In this document: piece by piece, positions 7,954-16,334 of the stretch
Position numbering within the stretch: position 1 is the stretch's first letter
Layout: every line of letters starts with the position of its first letter
Assembly: GCF_003217475.1 (NCBI RefSeq)
Contig: NZ_QJSP01000001.1
Coordinates: 248,001 to 312,000, forward strand
DNA: 64,000 bases
Direction: 5' to 3'
DNA from: Williamsia limnetica
Lineage (GTDB): Bacteria; Actinomycetota; Actinomycetes; Mycobacteriales; Mycobacteriaceae
Program-made: the position numbers and the translations under genes
Notes under the pieces: model-generated
Seen by the model: the letters and a program-made list of their open reading frames with translations, nothing else
The model's database searches: none
What the model was told of the DNA's origin: nothing

Positions 7954-8473
7954 ATCCGCGCAGTCTAGCGTCCGGCGGCACCGCCACATGATGGAGTCGG
8001 GTCATCGGTGCCAGATTCGTAGTAGTAGGCGAGCCCGCGGAGTTGTTGTTTTGCCTGATCATCGACACGCTCGGTCCGTGATTCATCGGATGAAACTGAG
8101 TGCATTACTTGACATAATGTTTCTTATCGGCGCGGAACTAATACCAGGCCAGGGGCCTAGGGCCGGCTGCAGCCCGAGTCGCTTTGTTGCGAGCCTCTGC
8201 GGTCGATGCCGACGCAACGACCGCGTCACAACCCAAATACTCGGTGAGCGCTGAGCCGCCCCGCGGCGACTACGGGCAAGTTGACACTGGATGCGAACCC
8301 CCGAGTCGGCTGCGGTCATCCTTCGGTGACATTCTTCGGCGACGGCCCTCAGTATGGATGGGCTGCACAGAGCCCGCTGTTAGGCACCAAAACGTCACAC
8401 GTGACGAAACCTGGTGATCAGCTGTTACTAATTCACCTGCGGCTCACGCCCTTTGGACCCGCTCCGCTCATGA
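7954..8473. other. Gene-poor stretch
   Basis: No convincing gene on either strand. It contains the second copy of the 19-bp direct repeat (8102-8120) and a 14-bp imperfect palindrome CGTCAC-AC-GTGACG at 8393-8406, which lies about 70 bp beyond the 3' end of the next TetR gene. Confidence 0.45.
8102..8120 (+). repeat. Direct repeat, copy 2 (core TTACTTGACA)
   Basis: GCATTACTTGACATAATGT; 16 of 19 positions identical to 7067-7085, core at 8105-8114. Same orientation as copy 1. Confidence 0.45.
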
Positions 8474-9094
8474 CTACTTGCTGGCGAGGCCGGCGACCGC
8501 AGTGGCGCCGATATCGATCAGGCGTAAGACGAACTCGTCGCGCTCCATCGGTAGTGCACCGCGAAGCCACATCGCCACGACATGTGTCGAGCCGGACACG
8601 AGCAGGTGCGCCACCAATTTGGCGTCGGCGTCGTTGACTGGGTCTGCGACCATCAGCCCCAAGAGCTGGTCGACGTAGCCATCGACAGCAGCATCGCGCG
8701 TGGCGAGCAACGCCGGACTGGCGGCCGACTCCAGGTACAGTCGTGCCGCGCGCGGGTCGTCCATAGCCGTCAAGACGGCGTCGATTGCAACCTCGAGGAT
8801 CTGTTCGGGTGTGACGTCGCCGGGGCTTCGTACCGACTCGATGGCTTCTGCGATGCGGTCAAAAACACCTTGTAGTGCGGTCGATAGCAGTTCGTCGAGT
8901 GATGTGAAGCTCTCGTAAAAATATCGCTTGGCCAAGCCCGCCCTGGTGCACACGGCGCCAATGGTGAGCTCGCCGACGCCACCCTCATGCACCAGATCGA
9001 GTGCGGCGCTGAGCAGACGCTCGCGACGATCAACGAGACGTTCCGCCTGCGACACACCACCGTACGTGCGTCCGAAACCATCGGCTGTGTTCAT
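8474..9094 (-). CDS. TetR-family regulator of the linalool-dehydratase-like operon
   Basis: A 206-aa TetR protein with HTH at about residues 20-65 (ELTIGAVCTRAGLAKRYFYESF; recognition part AGLAKRYFYESF). The C-terminal part is all-helical with no named ligand domain. The ATG at 9092-9094 (MNTADGFGR) is preferred over an upstream start at 9133. It is divergent from the 52-aa peptide/LDI-like operon, and a perfect 26-bp palindrome fills the gap, so it is almost certainly that operon's and its own repressor. The ligand may be the terpenoid-type substrate of the operon (inference). Confidence 0.9.
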   Translation of the reverse strand: MNTADGFGRTYGGVSQAERLVDRRERLLSAALDLVHEGGVGELTIGAVCTRAGLAKRYFYESFTSLDELLSTALQGVFDRIAEAIESVRSPGDVTPEQILEVAIDAVLTAMDDPRAARLYLESAASPALLATRDAAVDGYVDQLLGLMVADPVNDADAKLVAHLLVSGSTHVVAMWLRGALPMERDEFVLRLIDIGATAVAGLASK

Positions 9095-9134
9095 GAAGAC
9101 ATCTTGACAGTGATCGGCGACGCATGCGAGCATT

Positions 9135-9160
9135 CAGGAACTGCTACGTAGCAGTTCCTG
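9135..9160. promoter_or_regulatory. Perfect 26-bp palindrome, probable TetR operator
   Basis: The left arm CAGGAACTGCTAC is followed directly by its exact reverse complement, giving 13-bp arms with no spacer. It is 41 bp from the TetR start and 12 bp before the start of the divergent 52-aa gene, so a bound repressor would block both promoters. Confidence 0.85.
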
Positions 9161-9172
9161 ATTGGAGTCTTC

Positions 9173-9331
9173 ATGGTGTGCTGCATCGCCGCCGTCGCTG
9201 TCCTTGCCGTCCTGACGCGGTTCGTCGTTGCACCGCTGTCCTGGATTCGTGGCACGACGCAGGACAGCTGCACGTTGCCCACAGCTCAATACACGGCTCA
9301 GCATGCCGAGAAGTCGGGAGCACTACAGTGA
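9173..9331 (+). CDS. 52-aa membrane peptide, first gene of the LDI-like operon
   Basis: A short gene: ATG at 9173, TGA at 9329-9331. GGAG lies five bases before the ATG, a strong ribosome site. The peptide has one N-terminal hydrophobic helix (MVCCIAAVAVLAVL, continuing FVVAPL), a Cys pair at residues 3-4, and a polar tail ending EKSGALQ. Its stop overlaps the GTG start of the LDI-like gene (GTGA), so the two are translationally coupled. No family recognised; it could be a small subunit or membrane partner of the next protein, or a leader peptide. Its position straight after the operator argues that it is real. Confidence 0.7.
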   Translation: MVCCIAAVAVLAVLTRFVVAPLSWIRGTTQDSCTLPTAQYTAQHAEKSGALQ

Positions 9332-11259
9332 CGCACGACCACTCTCCTACCCTTCTGACCCGGCCGATGGTCATGCCGCTCCTCGACGAACATGCCCGCC
9401 TCCTTCCGCCCGTCACGCGCAGAATCATCGCGAGATCCGCACTCTCCTATGCAATCCTCTGGCTTGTCGGCATCATTCTCATTCTTTCTGGCACCGGCCG
9501 TATACAGATGCTGGGCGCGGGCTTGCTCGTGCCGGGCGGGGCCCACTTCGCACACGGTCACATTGCTTTCGGAGTCGTCGCCCTCGCCGCAGTGGCTGTG
9601 GCCGTGCTGCTGTGGTGGATGGTGGGTGCATTCGTCGCGCCGTTCATCGTGTGGGGAATCGACCTCGCGTGGTCGGTTGCAATGGCCAGTGGACACCACC
9701 ACGACGACACCGCACTGGCCGTCCTGCCCACCGTCGTGCCCGCGGTCGTCGCGCTGGCTGCGATTGCCCACGGGTTACGTCACCGGCGGCGGCTCGAGAC
9801 CGCCGCCCGCACCAATCACGTCCTCAGTGCCCGCCCCGTAGAGGTGACGCGAGTGCCCTCCCGAGCCGTGCTACCCGTCGGCGAAGCCACACCCGAGGAT
9901 CTGGCTCGGCTTCGGCTTGCCTTCGACCTTGCCCTGCAACCCATCGATCGATTTGATGGCTTCGACCGACGCGATCAGTTTCGCGAGGCTGCGCTGCGAT
10001 ACCAGCTCAGCATCCTCGGATATACGCTCTCGACCTACCGTTACAACTACGCGCCAGCATTCTCGGGGTACCTTGCCGAAGCAGGAGCCCGCTCGATCCA
10101 GAAAATGAGTGACCGACGAGTGTGGGGATACTGGGCTCTGGAAAACGCATGGGGTCGAATGAAACCGGGCCGCGACCCGGTCGACAACACCGACAACATC
10201 ATGCTCACCGGGTGGCAGGGCGTCTCCGTAGGAATGTTCGAAAGCCTGGAGGACGACCGCTTCTCCCAGCCCGGGGCAATCACATACCGGTGGTCCGATA
10301 CCGAGTCGTACGCCAACGACTTCCACTCTCTCGCAGTCTCCATTGAAGGGAACATGCGCAGATCGCCGTACACGCTGTACTCCTGCGAACCTCGCTGGAT
10401 CTACCCGGTGTGCAACACCTTTGGCGTCAATACCCTTGTGCTGCACGACCGTCTTCACGGGACCAACATGTTCGCGGGCCTCGAGGAGGCCATCAGACGG
10501 GCGTACCTCGAGGAGTTCCACCGTCCCGACGGGAGGATCATCGGCGTGAGATCGGAGACATTGGGAATTTCCTGGAGCCCGTGGTCAGGCGACGGAGTAT
10601 GGTTGCCCACCACCTACTGGATGCACGCCGCCCTGCCCGACCTTGCGCATCGTTCCTGGCAGCTGATGCGCGAGAACGTACTTCGCCACGACGGTGAACG
10701 GTTCCACCTACCGCGCACCCTGGCCAATCGTTGCGATGCCGGTTCTTACTCGTTCGGTCGTGACACCTTCGGCCAGATAATGCTGGCCATGGCAGCGCGT
10801 GAGATCGGCGACGAGGAAGTCGCGTCCAACGTCTTGGACCACCTCGATCACCACGAACCCATCCAAACCATCAACGAAGCAACAACATTCACCCAGACCT
10901 CCACGCAAGGAAACTTGTACTCACTGATGGCGCGATTCGGCCGGCACTCCGGTCTCCGCGATCTCATCGGCCACGGAGCGCAATCCACCTGGCATGGAGG
11001 GCCGCGCCTCGGGGATGCGTCGTATCCGGACGTGCTCGTGGCCCGCGCCGTCAACGACGGAGCAGCACTCGAGTGTGTTCTGTACCCCGGCGCAGGTGCC
11101 AGGCGAGTGAAACTCACCATCGACCGCGCGCAGCCCCACCGAACCTACCGAGTACGAGGTGCCCACGAATCTCAAGCATGCGCGGACACCGACGGAACGT
11201 TTCTCCTGACAATCGATCTCGGTGGTCGGACCGAACTGAAAGTGGAACCGCAGCTGTGA
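9328..11259 (+). CDS. Membrane-anchored linalool dehydratase/isomerase-like protein
   Basis: A 643-aa protein. Residues 1-165 contain a soluble leader (PLLDEHARLLPPVTRR) and four or five membrane helices (ILWLVGIILILSG, IAFGVVALAAVAVAV, APFIVWGIDLAWSV, VVPAVVALAAIA). Residues about 195-640 form a soluble (alpha/alpha)6-type domain resembling linalool dehydratase/isomerase. The best signature is CEPRWIYPVCN, with Cys353 and Cys362 nine residues apart, the same spacing as the catalytic Cys171/Cys180 of the Castellaniella enzyme; WALENAWGR, DNTDNIMLTGW and YANDFHS fit other active-site stretches. It may hydrate, dehydrate or isomerise an allylic terpenoid alcohol; the substrate is not shown. GTG start chosen from GGGAG seven bases upstream and the GTGA overlap. 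It is coupled to the next gene by another GTGA. Confidence 0.78.
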   Translation: MTHDHSPTLLTRPMVMPLLDEHARLLPPVTRRIIARSALSYAILWLVGIILILSGTGRIQMLGAGLLVPGGAHFAHGHIAFGVVALAAVAVAVLLWWMVGAFVAPFIVWGIDLAWSVAMASGHHHDDTALAVLPTVVPAVVALAAIAHGLRHRRRLETAARTNHVLSARPVEVTRVPSRAVLPVGEATPEDLARLRLAFDLALQPIDRFDGFDRRDQFREAALRYQLSILGYTLSTYRYNYAPAFSGYLAEAGARSIQKMSDRRVWGYWALENAWGRMKPGRDPVDNTDNIMLTGWQGVSVGMFESLEDDRFSQPGAITYRWSDTESYANDFHSLAVSIEGNMRRSPYTLYSCEPRWIYPVCNTFGVNTLVLHDRLHGTNMFAGLEEAIRRAYLEEFHRPDGRIIGVRSETLGISWSPWSGDGVWLPTTYWMHAALPDLAHRSWQLMRENVLRHDGERFHLPRTLANRCDAGSYSFGRDTFGQIMLAMAAREIGDEEVASNVLDHLDHHEPIQTINEATTFTQTSTQGNLYSLMARFGRHSGLRDLIGHGAQSTWHGGPRLGDASYPDVLVARAVNDGAALECVLYPGAGARRVKLTIDRAQPHRTYRVRGAHESQACADTDGTFLLTIDLGGRTELKVEPQL

Positions 11260-12125
11260 AACGGACCTTGGGCTGGAACGTCCGGCGGAAGATGCGAGCA
11301 CTTGATCCGACCTGCGATGCGGACGAGATCGCGAGATTGTCGCTGGTCACGCTCAACGGAAAGAGTCGCCTCGTCTACACACTCTTCACCGTGGCGTTCA
11401 TCAAACAGGTTGCCGTGCCTGCCATGGCACGCACACTCTATCGCCGCGGCACAGGCGATATCGTCGAGCAAACCATCAAACGCAACGACGACACAATCGT
11501 GTTCTTTGGGCAGCTGCTCGACCACGGACCGAGTTCACCGACCGGCCGTGACTGGATCGAACGACTCAATCAGATACATGCGCATTTCCCCCTCCGCAAC
11601 TCCGACTCCCTGTACACCCTGTCGACGCTCGCGCTCGATCCACACGACCTGACCGCTGCACTCGGACACTCACCGTTCACCCCGGCCGAACTCGGATCAC
11701 ACTGGCTGTTCTGGCGGCAAGTGGCCGAGCGGCAACACCTCTACGGAATACCCGAGACACGCGCCGAACTGCGCACCTGGGCACAGCAGTACGAGGAAAC
11801 CGAATATGCTCCCAGCGACGACGGCCGCCAGATCGTGGCAGCGCTCGTGCGAGCATTCGGACAACGCTGCCTGCCGGCTCCGCTCCGCCGTTGGGATGCC
11901 CACATCATCGGCGCCTTCTGTCCCCCGCGACTCCGTGACGTCCACGGCCTACCGGTCCCCGGACCCATCATCCACACCATCATCCGGCTCGGACTCGCGG
12001 TGTATGTTCACACCCTCGCCCTGCATCTTGTACCCACCGACCGCTCTCTGGCAGAAGATTTCGGCGACAAACGCTACGGTTCGCGGCCGCCGGCCGACGT
12101 CGGCTATCAGCGGACGCGCGGATGA
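11256..12125 (+). CDS. DUF2236 / MpaB-like oxygenase family protein
   Basis: A 289-aa protein of the DUF2236 (ER-bound oxygenase MpaB-like, latex-clearing-protein-related) family, expected to bind a single b-type heme and, where studied, to cleave terpenoid or polyisoprenoid C=C bonds. Visible family features: the early DADEIARLS and RLVYTLFTVAF, the heme-region motif NQIHAHFPLRNSDSLYTL (His and Asn-Ser-Asp), HWLFWRQVAERQHLYGIPET, and a C-terminal hydrophobic helix (IIHTIIRLGLAVY). GTG start overlaps the LDI-like stop (GTGA). With the LDI-like enzyme it suggests successive steps on an isoprenoid substrate (inference from operon and families). Confidence 0.78.
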   Translation: MKRTLGWNVRRKMRALDPTCDADEIARLSLVTLNGKSRLVYTLFTVAFIKQVAVPAMARTLYRRGTGDIVEQTIKRNDDTIVFFGQLLDHGPSSPTGRDWIERLNQIHAHFPLRNSDSLYTLSTLALDPHDLTAALGHSPFTPAELGSHWLFWRQVAERQHLYGIPETRAELRTWAQQYEETEYAPSDDGRQIVAALVRAFGQRCLPAPLRRWDAHIIGAFCPPRLRDVHGLPVPGPIIHTIIRLGLAVYVHTLALHLVPTDRSLAEDFGDKRYGSRPPADVGYQRTRG

Positions 12126-12178
12126 CCGGCTTGGCGGGTGGCACGATGGACCGTATTAGAGCTCAGCGAAAGGTGGAC

Positions 12179-12865
12179 ATGGTCAAAGTCTTGGCGTTCG
12201 ACACGTTCGGCACCGTCACGGACTGGCACAGTGGCGTCAGTGCGGCGCTCTACAGATTGTTCCCCGACATCGACGGGTCTGAACTCGCGCTCGACTGGCG
12301 ACGCACCTACGGCCCTGCGCTTGCTGAAGTGGAAGCCGGCGCTCGACCCTGGACGTTGCTCGACGACCTGCACCGCGAAGCACTCGAGCGACTACTCCAC
12401 GACCGTGGCGTTGTGAACGCCACTGCCGATCAGATCAATTCGGCTGTGCACGCGTGGCACACGATCCCTGGCTGGCCCGAGGCCGCTGAAGGTCTGCGCC
12501 GACTCAAACGGCGATATACCGTGTGCGCGCTCAGCAATGGCAACGTTGCGCTGCTCACCGAGATGGCCAAGCTCAACGATTTCGCCTGGGACTTCATCGG
12601 TGGCGCCGATCTTTGGCGTCACTACAAGCCGGCCTCCGAGGTGTATCTCGGAATTGCCGATCTCATGCGCGTCGAACCACATGAGGTGCTGATGGTAGCC
12701 ACCCACGCATCTGACCTCGAGGCGGCCAGATCTTGCGGTCTACGCACCGCGTACGTCGAACGACCTCGCGAGTGGGGAACGCAGCACAAAGATGAGCCCG
12801 TCAACCCACTCGATGACTACCACGTCACCGGAATGGACGATCTGGCCACACAACTGGGCTGCTGA
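12179..12865 (+). CDS. Haloacid dehalogenase type II-like hydrolase
   Basis: A 228-aa HAD-superfamily protein with the type II haloacid dehalogenase layout: motif I FDTFGTVTDW (nucleophile Asp), helical cap about residues 15-95, motif II ALSNGN (Ser), motif III with HYKPASEVY (Lys), and motif IV VATHASDLEAARSCG (Asp). It would hydrolyse a C-halogen or phosphate bond; many members are not true dehalogenases. GAAAGGTGG precedes the ATG at 12179. An ATG at 12122 overlapping the previous stop (ATGA) is the alternative and would add 19 poorly conserved residues. It ends the TetR-controlled operon. Confidence 0.82.
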   Translation: MVKVLAFDTFGTVTDWHSGVSAALYRLFPDIDGSELALDWRRTYGPALAEVEAGARPWTLLDDLHREALERLLHDRGVVNATADQINSAVHAWHTIPGWPEAAEGLRRLKRRYTVCALSNGNVALLTEMAKLNDFAWDFIGGADLWRHYKPASEVYLGIADLMRVEPHEVLMVATHASDLEAARSCGLRTAYVERPREWGTQHKDEPVNPLDDYHVTGMDDLATQLGC

Positions 12866-12875
12866 CCTCTGCCGG

Positions 12876-13484
12876 CTAAGTGCGGCGCACGAGTAGGTTG
12901 GCCATCGGGAATCTGTAACTACTGTCCCGGTAGATGATTCGCCAATCTTCGGCGAAACCGTGACTCCTCAGTAGTCGGCTGAACTCGTCGGGGTGCCATC
13001 GCCACGCGGGCGCAACCACGTGGTCGAACGGAACAGGCGGCCCGGGGTCGTCGCATGCCTGAAACGCAATCAGGACCGGCGTGCCCTCGGTCAGCCTGTC
13101 AGACCAGATGCGAACAACCTCGACAACCTGATCGGGCTCGACGTGGATCAGACTGAATCGGGCTATGACCGCGGCGATCCGGGTGTTCTCGGACAACACC
13201 GTCAAAGTCGCATCGCCCGCGATGAAGCGCAGGTCGGGGTATGTGCGCCACGCATGGTCGAGCATTCCCGTGCTGGGGTCGCAGCCGATCGCATCGAGCC
13301 CGCGATCAATCAAATCCGCTGTCACATGGCCGAGCCCACATCCAACGTCGACCGTCACGCCATCGCGGTCCTTGGCCACCTCTGCGAACGCGGCCACCGC
13401 ATGCGCTTCGATGGGAAATTGATAGGCCGTCGGGATGGTCGCTGCGTACAGATCGGCCATGGCGTCGTAACCATCCTGAGTCAT
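12876..13484 (-). CDS. Class I SAM-dependent methyltransferase
   Basis: A 202-aa methyltransferase. Motif I is VTVDVGCGLGHVTADL (SAM-binding glycines) at about residues 43-58, followed by IGCDPSTGMLDHA (motif II acid), FIAGDATLTVL and the IARFSLIHVEPD region. It resembles the UbiE/Methyltransf_11/25 group. Acceptor unknown. The ATG at 13482-13484 removes an Arg-rich upstream extension that would overlap the next gene. It lies 16 bp downstream of the DUF6319-like gene and is probably co-transcribed with it. Confidence 0.82.
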   Translation of the reverse strand: MTQDGYDAMADLYAATIPTAYQFPIEAHAVAAFAEVAKDRDGVTVDVGCGLGHVTADLIDRGLDAIGCDPSTGMLDHAWRTYPDLRFIAGDATLTVLSENTRIAAVIARFSLIHVEPDQVVEVVRIWSDRLTEGTPVLIAFQACDDPGPPVPFDHVVAPAWRWHPDEFSRLLRSHGFAEDWRIIYRDSSYRFPMANLLVRRT

Positions 13485-14972: not shown

Positions 14973-16334
14973 TCAGAGCCGAGCGTCGAAACGTCTGGCG
15001 TGTTCCAAGATTACTTCGACGGCGCGCGCTGCGCTTTGACACGCACCTTCCATTGTTGTGGTCCAGTCGGTCCGGGTCCAGTCGCCTGCCAATGCGAGCC
15101 CCTGGACAGAGGTGCGCTGATCTGGGCGAATACCAGCGGTTCCTGGTCGTTGGGCAAAGGTGGACTTCGGCATCCTGACGACATGACTGTGGACCACCTC
15201 GGCATGCGCGGCGCCGGGGAAGTACCTGCGCAGCTGATTCATCTGGATGTCGGTGATCTCGGTGTTCGTCTTGTTGGTCAGTTCATAGGCCGCCGACACA
15301 GTGGTGGAGTAAAGGTGATGCCGAGATGCGTCCCGTCCGTGCATGCGCTGACGATCCCAGACCTGCTCGAGGGTCCCTTCTCCACCCAAGAGAATCTCTC
15401 CCCAGTCGGCCATACCGATCGAGCGATCGAGGTACAAGTTGACACTCACTATGGGTACCGGCGTCAGTTGCTCGATTGCCGCATAGATTCGTTCGTGTTC
15501 GGGAACCTGATCGAGCAGTCCTCTCACGCTCCACACCGGCACGGCACAGATGACTGCGTCGGCCGAGACCCGTTCACCGTCGACGAGAGTGACCCCCACG
15601 ACGGCGCCGCCGGCGACGTCGACCGCCGAAACAACTGCCCGATAACGGATATCGACGCCGGCGTCGGCGAACAGTTTCTCTGCGCCGTCGACGAACAGGG
15701 TGTTGAGGTCGACGGTCGGATACCCAATTGAGATCGGTGTCTTGGTCTCGCGCGCTCGTCGTATGCCGGTCACCAGCAAGTCGGCCGGGACCTTCGCCGA
15801 CGTGATGTCGGGTTTGTCGCCAGTCAGTCCGATCACGATCCCGTCCCACAGCGCGTCGCGGGCCGACTGTGGCATCTTGATGCGCCGGAACCAGTCGTCT
15901 GCAGTAATGTCGTCGAGCCAGGCGGGCTGACGAATGGCCTGCCGGATCAGCGTGATCTGCGCCCGTGCCGTGCGCAATCGGTCGAGACCGGTGACGCCGG
16001 GAAGATCTCCGAACGCGGCCCGCAACCCGGCCACACCTCCGAACGCCGACACGCGGGTGCCGCCACCGGGCAGCCGAATGGTCATGTGCCCGGGAAACTC
16101 GACATATTTCCGGGTGCCGACGCTGTCCAGATACCGCATCAGGTGCTGATATCCGCTCGCGAAGACGTGCTGTCCATTGTCGGGCACGTCGTCGACTGCG
16201 GCGACCGGCATTGCGATGGTTCGGCCGCCCAACGACCCCCGTCGTTCCAGGAGCGTCACCCGATGGCCGGCTTCCGACAGCCATACCGCCGAGGCGAGTC
16301 CGGCCAGTCCCCCACCAACGACTACGCAATGCAT
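14973..16334 (-). CDS. HpnE-like (hydroxysqualene dehydroxylase family) FAD oxidoreductase
   Basis: A 453-aa flavoprotein of the phytoene-desaturase/amine-oxidase group closest to hydroxysqualene dehydroxylase HpnE. The N-terminal Rossmann motif is VVVGGGLAGLASAVWL (residues 4-19) with LLERRGSLGGRT; the FAD-capping C-terminal motif is LALAGDWTRTDWTTTMEGA. Inside are NGQHVFASGYQHL and DDWFRRI, typical for HpnE. HpnE reduces hydroxysqualene to squalene, but the partners HpnC/HpnD are not in this window, so another polyprenoid may be the substrate. It overlaps no neighbour and is 16 bp downstream of the DUF3995 gene, so probably in one transcript with it. Confidence 0.78.
   Translation of the reverse strand: MHCVVVGGGLAGLASAVWLSEAGHRVTLLERRGSLGGRTIAMPVAAVDDVPDNGQHVFASGYQHLMRYLDSVGTRKYVEFPGHMTIRLPGGGTRVSAFGGVAGLRAAFGDLPGVTGLDRLRTARAQITLIRQAIRQPAWLDDITADDWFRRIKMPQSARDALWDGIVIGLTGDKPDITSAKVPADLLVTGIRRARETKTPISIGYPTVDLNTLFVDGAEKLFADAGVDIRYRAVVSAVDVAGGAVVGVTLVDGERVSADAVICAVPVWSVRGLLDQVPEHERIYAAIEQLTPVPIVSVNLYLDRSIGMADWGEILLGGEGTLEQVWDRQRMHGRDASRHHLYSTTVSAAYELTNKTNTEITDIQMNQLRRYFPGAAHAEVVHSHVVRMPKSTFAQRPGTAGIRPDQRTSVQGLALAGDWTRTDWTTTMEGACQSAARAVEVILEHARRFDARL

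Follow-up and report, generated by a model that had tools for sequence, protein, structure and literature searches.

The question raised by this locus of Williamsia limnetica is which of its genes form a unit and what reaction that unit may carry out. The window, which is the whole stretch of 64,000 nucleotides analysed here, contains a TetR-family gene divergent from an operon that begins with a very short reading frame. ORF and profile searches located all the genes and motifs listed in an earlier note on this DNA, namely the TetR gene, a palindrome, the peptide gene, a linalool dehydratase/isomerase (LDI) domain, an MpaB protein and a HAD hydrolase (Table 1). The 4-nucleotide overlaps described in that note are real between the peptide and LDI genes (9328-9331) and between the LDI and MpaB genes (11256-11259), but the HAD gene probably starts later and without an overlap. 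An alternative ATG at 12122 would give HAD a 4-nucleotide overlap with MpaB. The ATG at 12179 has a Shine-Dalgarno-like AAAGG 5 nucleotides upstream, and in the frame read from 12122 the HAD profile match opens only at residue 22, which makes it more likely that HAD begins 53 nucleotides past MpaB. The likely start of the TetR gene is 9094, the position at which homologues begin, rather than 9133.

Table 1. Features of the W. limnetica locus, with positions counted from the first nucleotide of the window.
Feature	Position	Strand	Basis
TetR-family regulator gene	8474..9094; ORF opens at 9133	-	TetR_N 9.4e-7
TTGACA, -35-like hexamer	9104..9109	+	read from sequence
28-bp perfect palindrome, probable TetR operator	9134..9161	.	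dyad scan
MxCC microprotein gene, 52 aa, begins MVCC, single hydrophobic stretch	9173..9331	+	
LDI/Lis-type protein gene, 643 aa, GTG start	9328..11259	+	Pfam Ldi
Cys353...Cys362 catalytic-type pair	codons 10384-10386, 10411-10413	+	alignment with LDI
MpaB/Lcp/TAO-fold protein gene, 289 aa, GTG start	11256..12125	+	PF09995
HAD type II hydrolase gene	12179..12865; ORF from 12122	+	TIGR01428
Hydroxysqualene dehydroxylase HpnE-like gene	14973-16334	-	283.9 vs NCBIfam cut-off 283.05 bits

The LDI-like protein matched Pfam Ldi (PF18566) with 258 bits (1.7e-76), which places the LDI domain at residues 224-525. A phmmer search of the PDB matched eight sequences, all of them LDI. Structure prediction had been proposed in the earlier note, and the AlphaFold model (pLDDT 93.9) had LDI as its best Foldseek match (E 2.9e-11, TMt up to 0.80). 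The Cys353/Cys362 pair that the note had read as LDI-type aligns with the reduced Cys170/179 of LDI, and all 53 aligned relatives have both cysteines. The pair lies in a CEP-x6-C context in which P355 is invariant. His128 of LDI (H129 in other numbering) we take to be catalytic; the window protein has Trp296 in this column, and His occurs there in 0 of the 53 rows. Asp262 occupies the column of LDI Cys101. Hydropathy and the AlphaFold model place N-terminal hydrophobic stretches and helices within residues 28-167, with the hydrophobic stretches at 33-150, and these resemble Lis.

Two solved or described enzymes were compared with the window protein. The Castellaniella defragrans LDI (5g1u, 5hlr) has the same fold by Foldseek, Cys170/179 and the CEP...C motif, but it has WGDW along with His128 where the window protein has WGYW and Trp296. 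It is also periplasmic with a signal peptide, and its Cys101 pairs with Cys48 in a disulfide, as described in the excerpted sources (PMC4791888 among them), whereas the window protein has an N-terminal hydrophobic domain. Excerpts of PMC12455561, PMC6600392 and PMC12333492 were also drawn on. Lis of Thauera linaloolentis (ENO87364) is described in the available part of PMC4791888 as an inner-membrane activity with four predicted transmembrane helices and a cytosolic domain; it needs a reductant, and reductants activate it. Lis and the window protein have in common their length, the N-terminal hydrophobic domain, the LDI domain and the Cys pair, as well as the Trp at the His128 column, WGYW and an MxCC gene (described below) within the gene array. 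The T. linaloolentis 47Lol locus (L108) matches the window protein over residues 1-641 at 31% identity, and its LDI-family gene, which encodes 644 residues as published, is the sole one found in that genome. Lis differs further in that no MpaB was found near it and in that it lies in an atu-like array and is used anaerobically, whereas the window has a two-enzyme cassette. The Lis-like length, N-terminal domain, Cys pair and Trp, with Asp262 at the Cys101 column, assign the window protein by homology to the Lis type rather than to the Castellaniella-type dehydratases, with a predicted activity, and it is probably membrane-anchored. The LDI likeness seen earlier holds for a probably membrane-anchored enzyme whose closer counterpart is the membrane-anchored Lis, not the periplasmic dehydratase LDI.

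Scanning named genomes gave 80 LDI loci of 116 confirmed stretches, and the window brings the comparison to 81 loci. LDI, MpaB, TetR and MxCC were counted by six-frame or ORF-pattern searches. Comparisons of flanking genes rest on weaker gene lists that carry shadow ORFs in GC-rich loci. The LDI frame of L062, L063 and L066 is split across two frames or by a stop, which marks either a pseudogene or a sequencing error. The LDI locus of a Fluviicoccus (Moraxellaceae) MAG (L076) groups with the actinobacterial ones, either by transfer or because the contig was misbinned.

The protein encoded after the LDI gene matched MPAB_Lcp_cat (PF09995, DUF2236) with 42.2 bits against a cut-off of 23 (1.3e-10). 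Its model (pLDDT 93.7) matched trans-anethole oxygenase best (TAO; 8s1j, TM 0.82) and Lcp less well, and phmmer and profile searches also point to 8s1j. TAO and the window protein have the fold and an R-x2-D-T...H motif in common at 21% identity, and R76, D79, T80 and H108 of this motif (R76-x2-D79-T80...H108) are invariant in 17 MpaB rows. The TAO paper, in its available part, describes TAO as a flavoprotein. Excerpts on Lcp list Arg164, Lys167 (distal), Thr168 and His198 (proximal) around the haem. The spacing of R76/T80/H108 is near that of Lcp Arg164/Thr168/His198, and if these residues are equivalent, Asp79 would stand where Lcp has its distal Lys167. These data confirm by domain and fold the DUF2236/MpaB-type protein that had been recognized beside LDI.

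The distribution of MpaB shows how far this pairing extends. In 18 of the 81 loci the MpaB gene is no more than 3 kb away from LDI, and a strong TetR profile match is found near LDI in all 18. A tree of 53 rows, with 28 of the 81 loci left out, gave a clade containing the window in which all 12 rows carry MpaB, and the MpaB label takes three changes over the tree. Aeromicrobium sp. Leaf350 (L039) is placed inside the nocardial clade, and this position suggests transfer. Among 201 relatives, the MpaB profile matched 102 genomes at E<=0.001, with LDI in 14. At E<=1e-100 it matched nine places, seven of which adjoin LDI. Two close MpaB relatives (L166:6054-6962 and L167:6043-6924) have no LDI in their 12-kb stretch.

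HAD was rejected as a member of the unit. It is a real gene (147.3 bits on the haloacid dehalogenase type II equivalog TIGR01428, cut-off 125.4), but six-frame translations of L021-L116 placed no HAD beside the 17 other MpaB-bearing loci. The only other HAD match in L021-L116 is a weak one (3.7e-5) in the Hoyosella locus L036, where about 16 kb separate it from LDI. The earlier four-gene set with HAD does not recur; as defined by profile matches, the recurring module is TetR, the MxCC peptide, the LDI-like protein and MpaB. The flanking genes vary between genera in the gene lists, and the Williamsia loci L022-L024 have some of them in common. The HpnE-like gene begins 2.8 kb past the window's MpaB gene, and no homologue of it was clustered with the cassette in L021-L036.

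The operator-like site of the earlier note lies between the TetR and peptide genes as the palindrome TCAGGAACTGCTACGTAGCAGTTCCTGA, which is perfect across 28 bp. The best dyad in 25 TetR-peptide gaps, the window included, scored at least 8 in 14 gaps and 6-7 in 7, and 4 gaps had none. A central ACG occurs in 12 of the 14 gaps with a dyad score of at least 8, in a scan run without a shuffled control. TTGACA is present in many of the 25 gaps, and a sigma-70 scan of 8300-13000 detected no full promoter. The 28-bp palindrome is a probable TetR operator.

The tiny membrane peptide is present as first described, but its conservation as a family had been missed, and this is the widest among the companions of LDI. 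In other genomes, the ORFs 5' of LDI start with M-x-C-C (hence MxCC) and have a hydrophobic stretch followed by basic residues and often FAPPARR. The 81 loci (1.56 Mb) contain 148 MxCC ORFs of at least 35 residues. Profile seeds were picked from LDI loci (11 actinobacterial rows, 13 proteobacterial rows and 47 rows for profile A5). A family match at E<=1e-3 was found in 71 of the 81 LDI loci, a count that includes the seed loci, and 67 of the matches are within 1 kb. The MxCC gene is 5' on the same strand in 51 of the 71 loci, directly 3' on the same strand in 7, convergent and 3' in 9, and farther away in 4. Fourteen MxCC gene pairs have 179, 129 and 336 differences at codon positions 1, 2 and 3, a pattern that identifies MxCC as coding DNA. 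Ten members searched against Pfam and ten against NCBIfam gave sub-threshold matches only, with no family over the cut-off in either collection; no named family was found. A search of PDB sequences with the A6 profile had no match at E<=1.

Ten of the 81 loci gave no MxCC match (L061, L062, L068, L088, L092, L098, L103, L104, L109 and L116). Contig ends truncate L068 and L088, the L103 form begins M-C-C, and L092 has an MxCC about 13 kb away. The whole genomes of L061, L062 and L092 had no match to the proteobacterial MxCC profile, and the L116 genome had a weak one (0.001). The profile match is on another contig in the L098 and L109 genomes, and beside the other LDI copy in the L104 genome. 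The family also has long forms, which keep C3, C4, H145 and H163 in 15 aligned members. The long MxCC proteins at L029:7261-7830, L033:7276-8016 and L073:2853-3509 have an added membrane domain and two invariant His in DMH- and FH-type motifs. In L071-L073, L079, L080, L083-L085 and L106, mostly mycobacterial or unclassified actinobacterial MAGs, an LDI without the N-terminal membrane domain is convergent with the MxCC gene.

Whole-genome counts were used to compare the occurrence of MxCC and LDI, and some of the genomes in both sets hold MxCC seed loci. LDI is present in 14 of the 201 relatives and MxCC (E<=1e-7) in 13, with both in 12. G072 and G149 have LDI without MxCC, and G039 has MxCC without LDI at the end of a 3-kb contig. 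Relaxing the threshold to E<=0.01 gave 41 genomes matching A5, and all those beyond the 13 strong ones score 2e-5 or weaker. The 394 genomes of the class include 15 with LDI and 12 with MxCC (E<=1e-9). All 12 have LDI, and all 13 MxCC places are on the same contig and within about 2 kb of the LDI gene (Fisher 2e-20, a test that ignores phylogeny). LDI occurs without MxCC in G221, G275 and G543, and at E<=1e-4 one weak match limited to positions 13-49 was added (G133).

Cleaner tests came from a single-sequence plasmid search, from L099, L110, L111 and L075, which are outside the proteobacterial seeds, and from the plasmid loci L168-L170. A tblastn search of 72,556 plasmids with the Thauera MxCC protein returned one record, Novosphingobium pSA1, in which the match starts 16 nucleotides past the end of the LDI match; it did not pick up the short Aureimonas and R. 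opacus MxCC ORFs that this collection contains. Twelve plasmid records with LDI were found, and MxCC is present in three of the five loci examined (L168-L170) and absent from two. The Rhodococcus opacus plasmid (L169:5065-8426) carries LDI, a Caa3_CtaG-like membrane protein and then a 36-residue MACC ORF, and the CtaG-like neighbour hints at metal or redox handling. In the Aureimonas sp. AU20 plasmid (L170:5297-8036), a cis-prenyltransferase gene overlaps LDI by 4 nucleotides and a 38-residue MACC ORF starts on the final base of LDI, so this LDI possibly lies in a biosynthetic setting. Neither MACC ORF is in the listed annotation, which comes from incomplete PLSDB tables. By these data no other companion of the LDI-like gene is as widely conserved as MxCC, which is also the most novel element of the set.

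The Thauera locus provides the comparison with a described pathway. The one LDI-family gene and the one MxCC gene of T. linaloolentis are 8 kb apart. The MGCC gene of L108 (1923-2306) has an acyl-CoA ligase gene on one side and an enoyl-CoA hydratase gene on the other. Further ORFs on the same strand match a TIGR03084 protein, a carboxyl transferase, a biotin carboxylase and another enoyl-CoA hydratase, after which comes lis. We infer that these neighbours are the geranyl-CoA (atu) enzymes; the available part of PMC4847356 states that T. linaloolentis uses the geranyl-CoA route. Among the 23 loci that are proteobacterial or unclassified, 5 have a carboxylase subunit homologue near LDI, and 2 of these 5 are from Thauera; the count is 0 for the 18 MpaB loci and 0 for 40 other actinobacterial loci. 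Mutual exclusion of carboxylase and MpaB was considered and is weakly informative, since other actinobacterial loci have neither.

We give an even chance to a cassette under TetR control in which an allylic isoprenoid alcohol is first isomerised and then oxidatively cleaved, and in which MxCC is the partner of the isomerase. TetR would repress through the palindrome, and the inducer would be a terpenoid alcohol or its product. The LDI/Lis-type enzyme would be a membrane-anchored protein with a cytosolic catalytic domain and would shift the hydroxyl of the alcohol as a 3,1-hydroxyl mutase of the linalool to geraniol type, using the Cys353/Cys362 pocket. MxCC would be a membrane partner for assembly of the isomerase or for keeping its cysteines reduced. 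The MpaB/TAO-type protein would use O2 to cleave a C=C bond in the isomerised product, giving a carbonyl pair, and it would depend on haem if it is Lcp-like. MpaB is absent near 63 of the 81 LDI loci, so the oxidative step would be clade-specific. In aerobic actinobacteria the cassette might take the place of geranyl-CoA carboxylation, the route found together with lis in Thauera; the absence of carboxylases from the 40 other actinobacterial loci makes this idea weak. For the family as a whole, the chance falls slightly short of even that LDI/Lis enzymes depend obligately on MxCC as a subunit or activator, which would render their catalytic Cys pair active or keep it so, possibly through thiol redox or the handling of metal.

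Three other roles were weighed against this cassette. The genes could confer terpenoid tolerance by inactivating toxic exogenous monoterpenols rather than by supporting growth, and such a role would need no downstream pathway. A small unit with its own regulator gene and flanking genes that vary between genera fits this role, as do the toxicity of monoterpenols and the defence role proposed for LDI in the available parts of PMC4791888 and PMC4847356. The catabolic, atu-like array around Thauera lis and the flanking genes common to Williamsia L022-L024 argue against it, and we regard tolerance as rather unlikely. A biosynthetic or modifying role on endogenous prenols, such as a membrane polyprenol or a hopanoid- or carotenoid-like compound, is less probable still. 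The overlapping cis-prenyltransferase gene of Aureimonas and the nearby HpnE-like gene of the window point in this direction, but HpnE-like homologues do not cluster with the cassette in L021-L036, and LDI is patchy, being present in 15 of the 394 genomes.

The earlier note had also raised degradation of rubber-like polyisoprenoids, with MpaB acting like Lcp. The proteins belong to a common DUF2236/MPAB_Lcp family and fold, but the nearest solved relative of MpaB is TAO with Lcp more distant, and Asp79 would replace the distal Lys of Lcp. Polyisoprenoid degradation is thus highly improbable.

The cassette itself is real and recurring, and we infer its function. The pairing of LDI with MpaB is new, the isomerase belongs to a known type, and the MxCC family is the novel element. 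Among the papers listed in searches of the open-licence PMC literature (12 of 522 entries for one of them), with subscription papers outside their scope, none dealt with an operon of LDI and MpaB or with an MxCC partner. LDI/Lis enzymes attract interest as biocatalysts for alkenes and terpenols. Lis expressed alone in E. coli was inactive, and the authors suggest incorrect folding in the available part of PMC4791888. If MxCC is obligate, this failure would be due to its absence, and a companion that tracks LDI/Lis across two phyla provides a direct test of why lone Lis is inactive. Its pairing with an oxygenase that may cleave alkenes suggests that aerobic actinobacteria could break down branched isoprenoid alcohols by a short route free of CoA.
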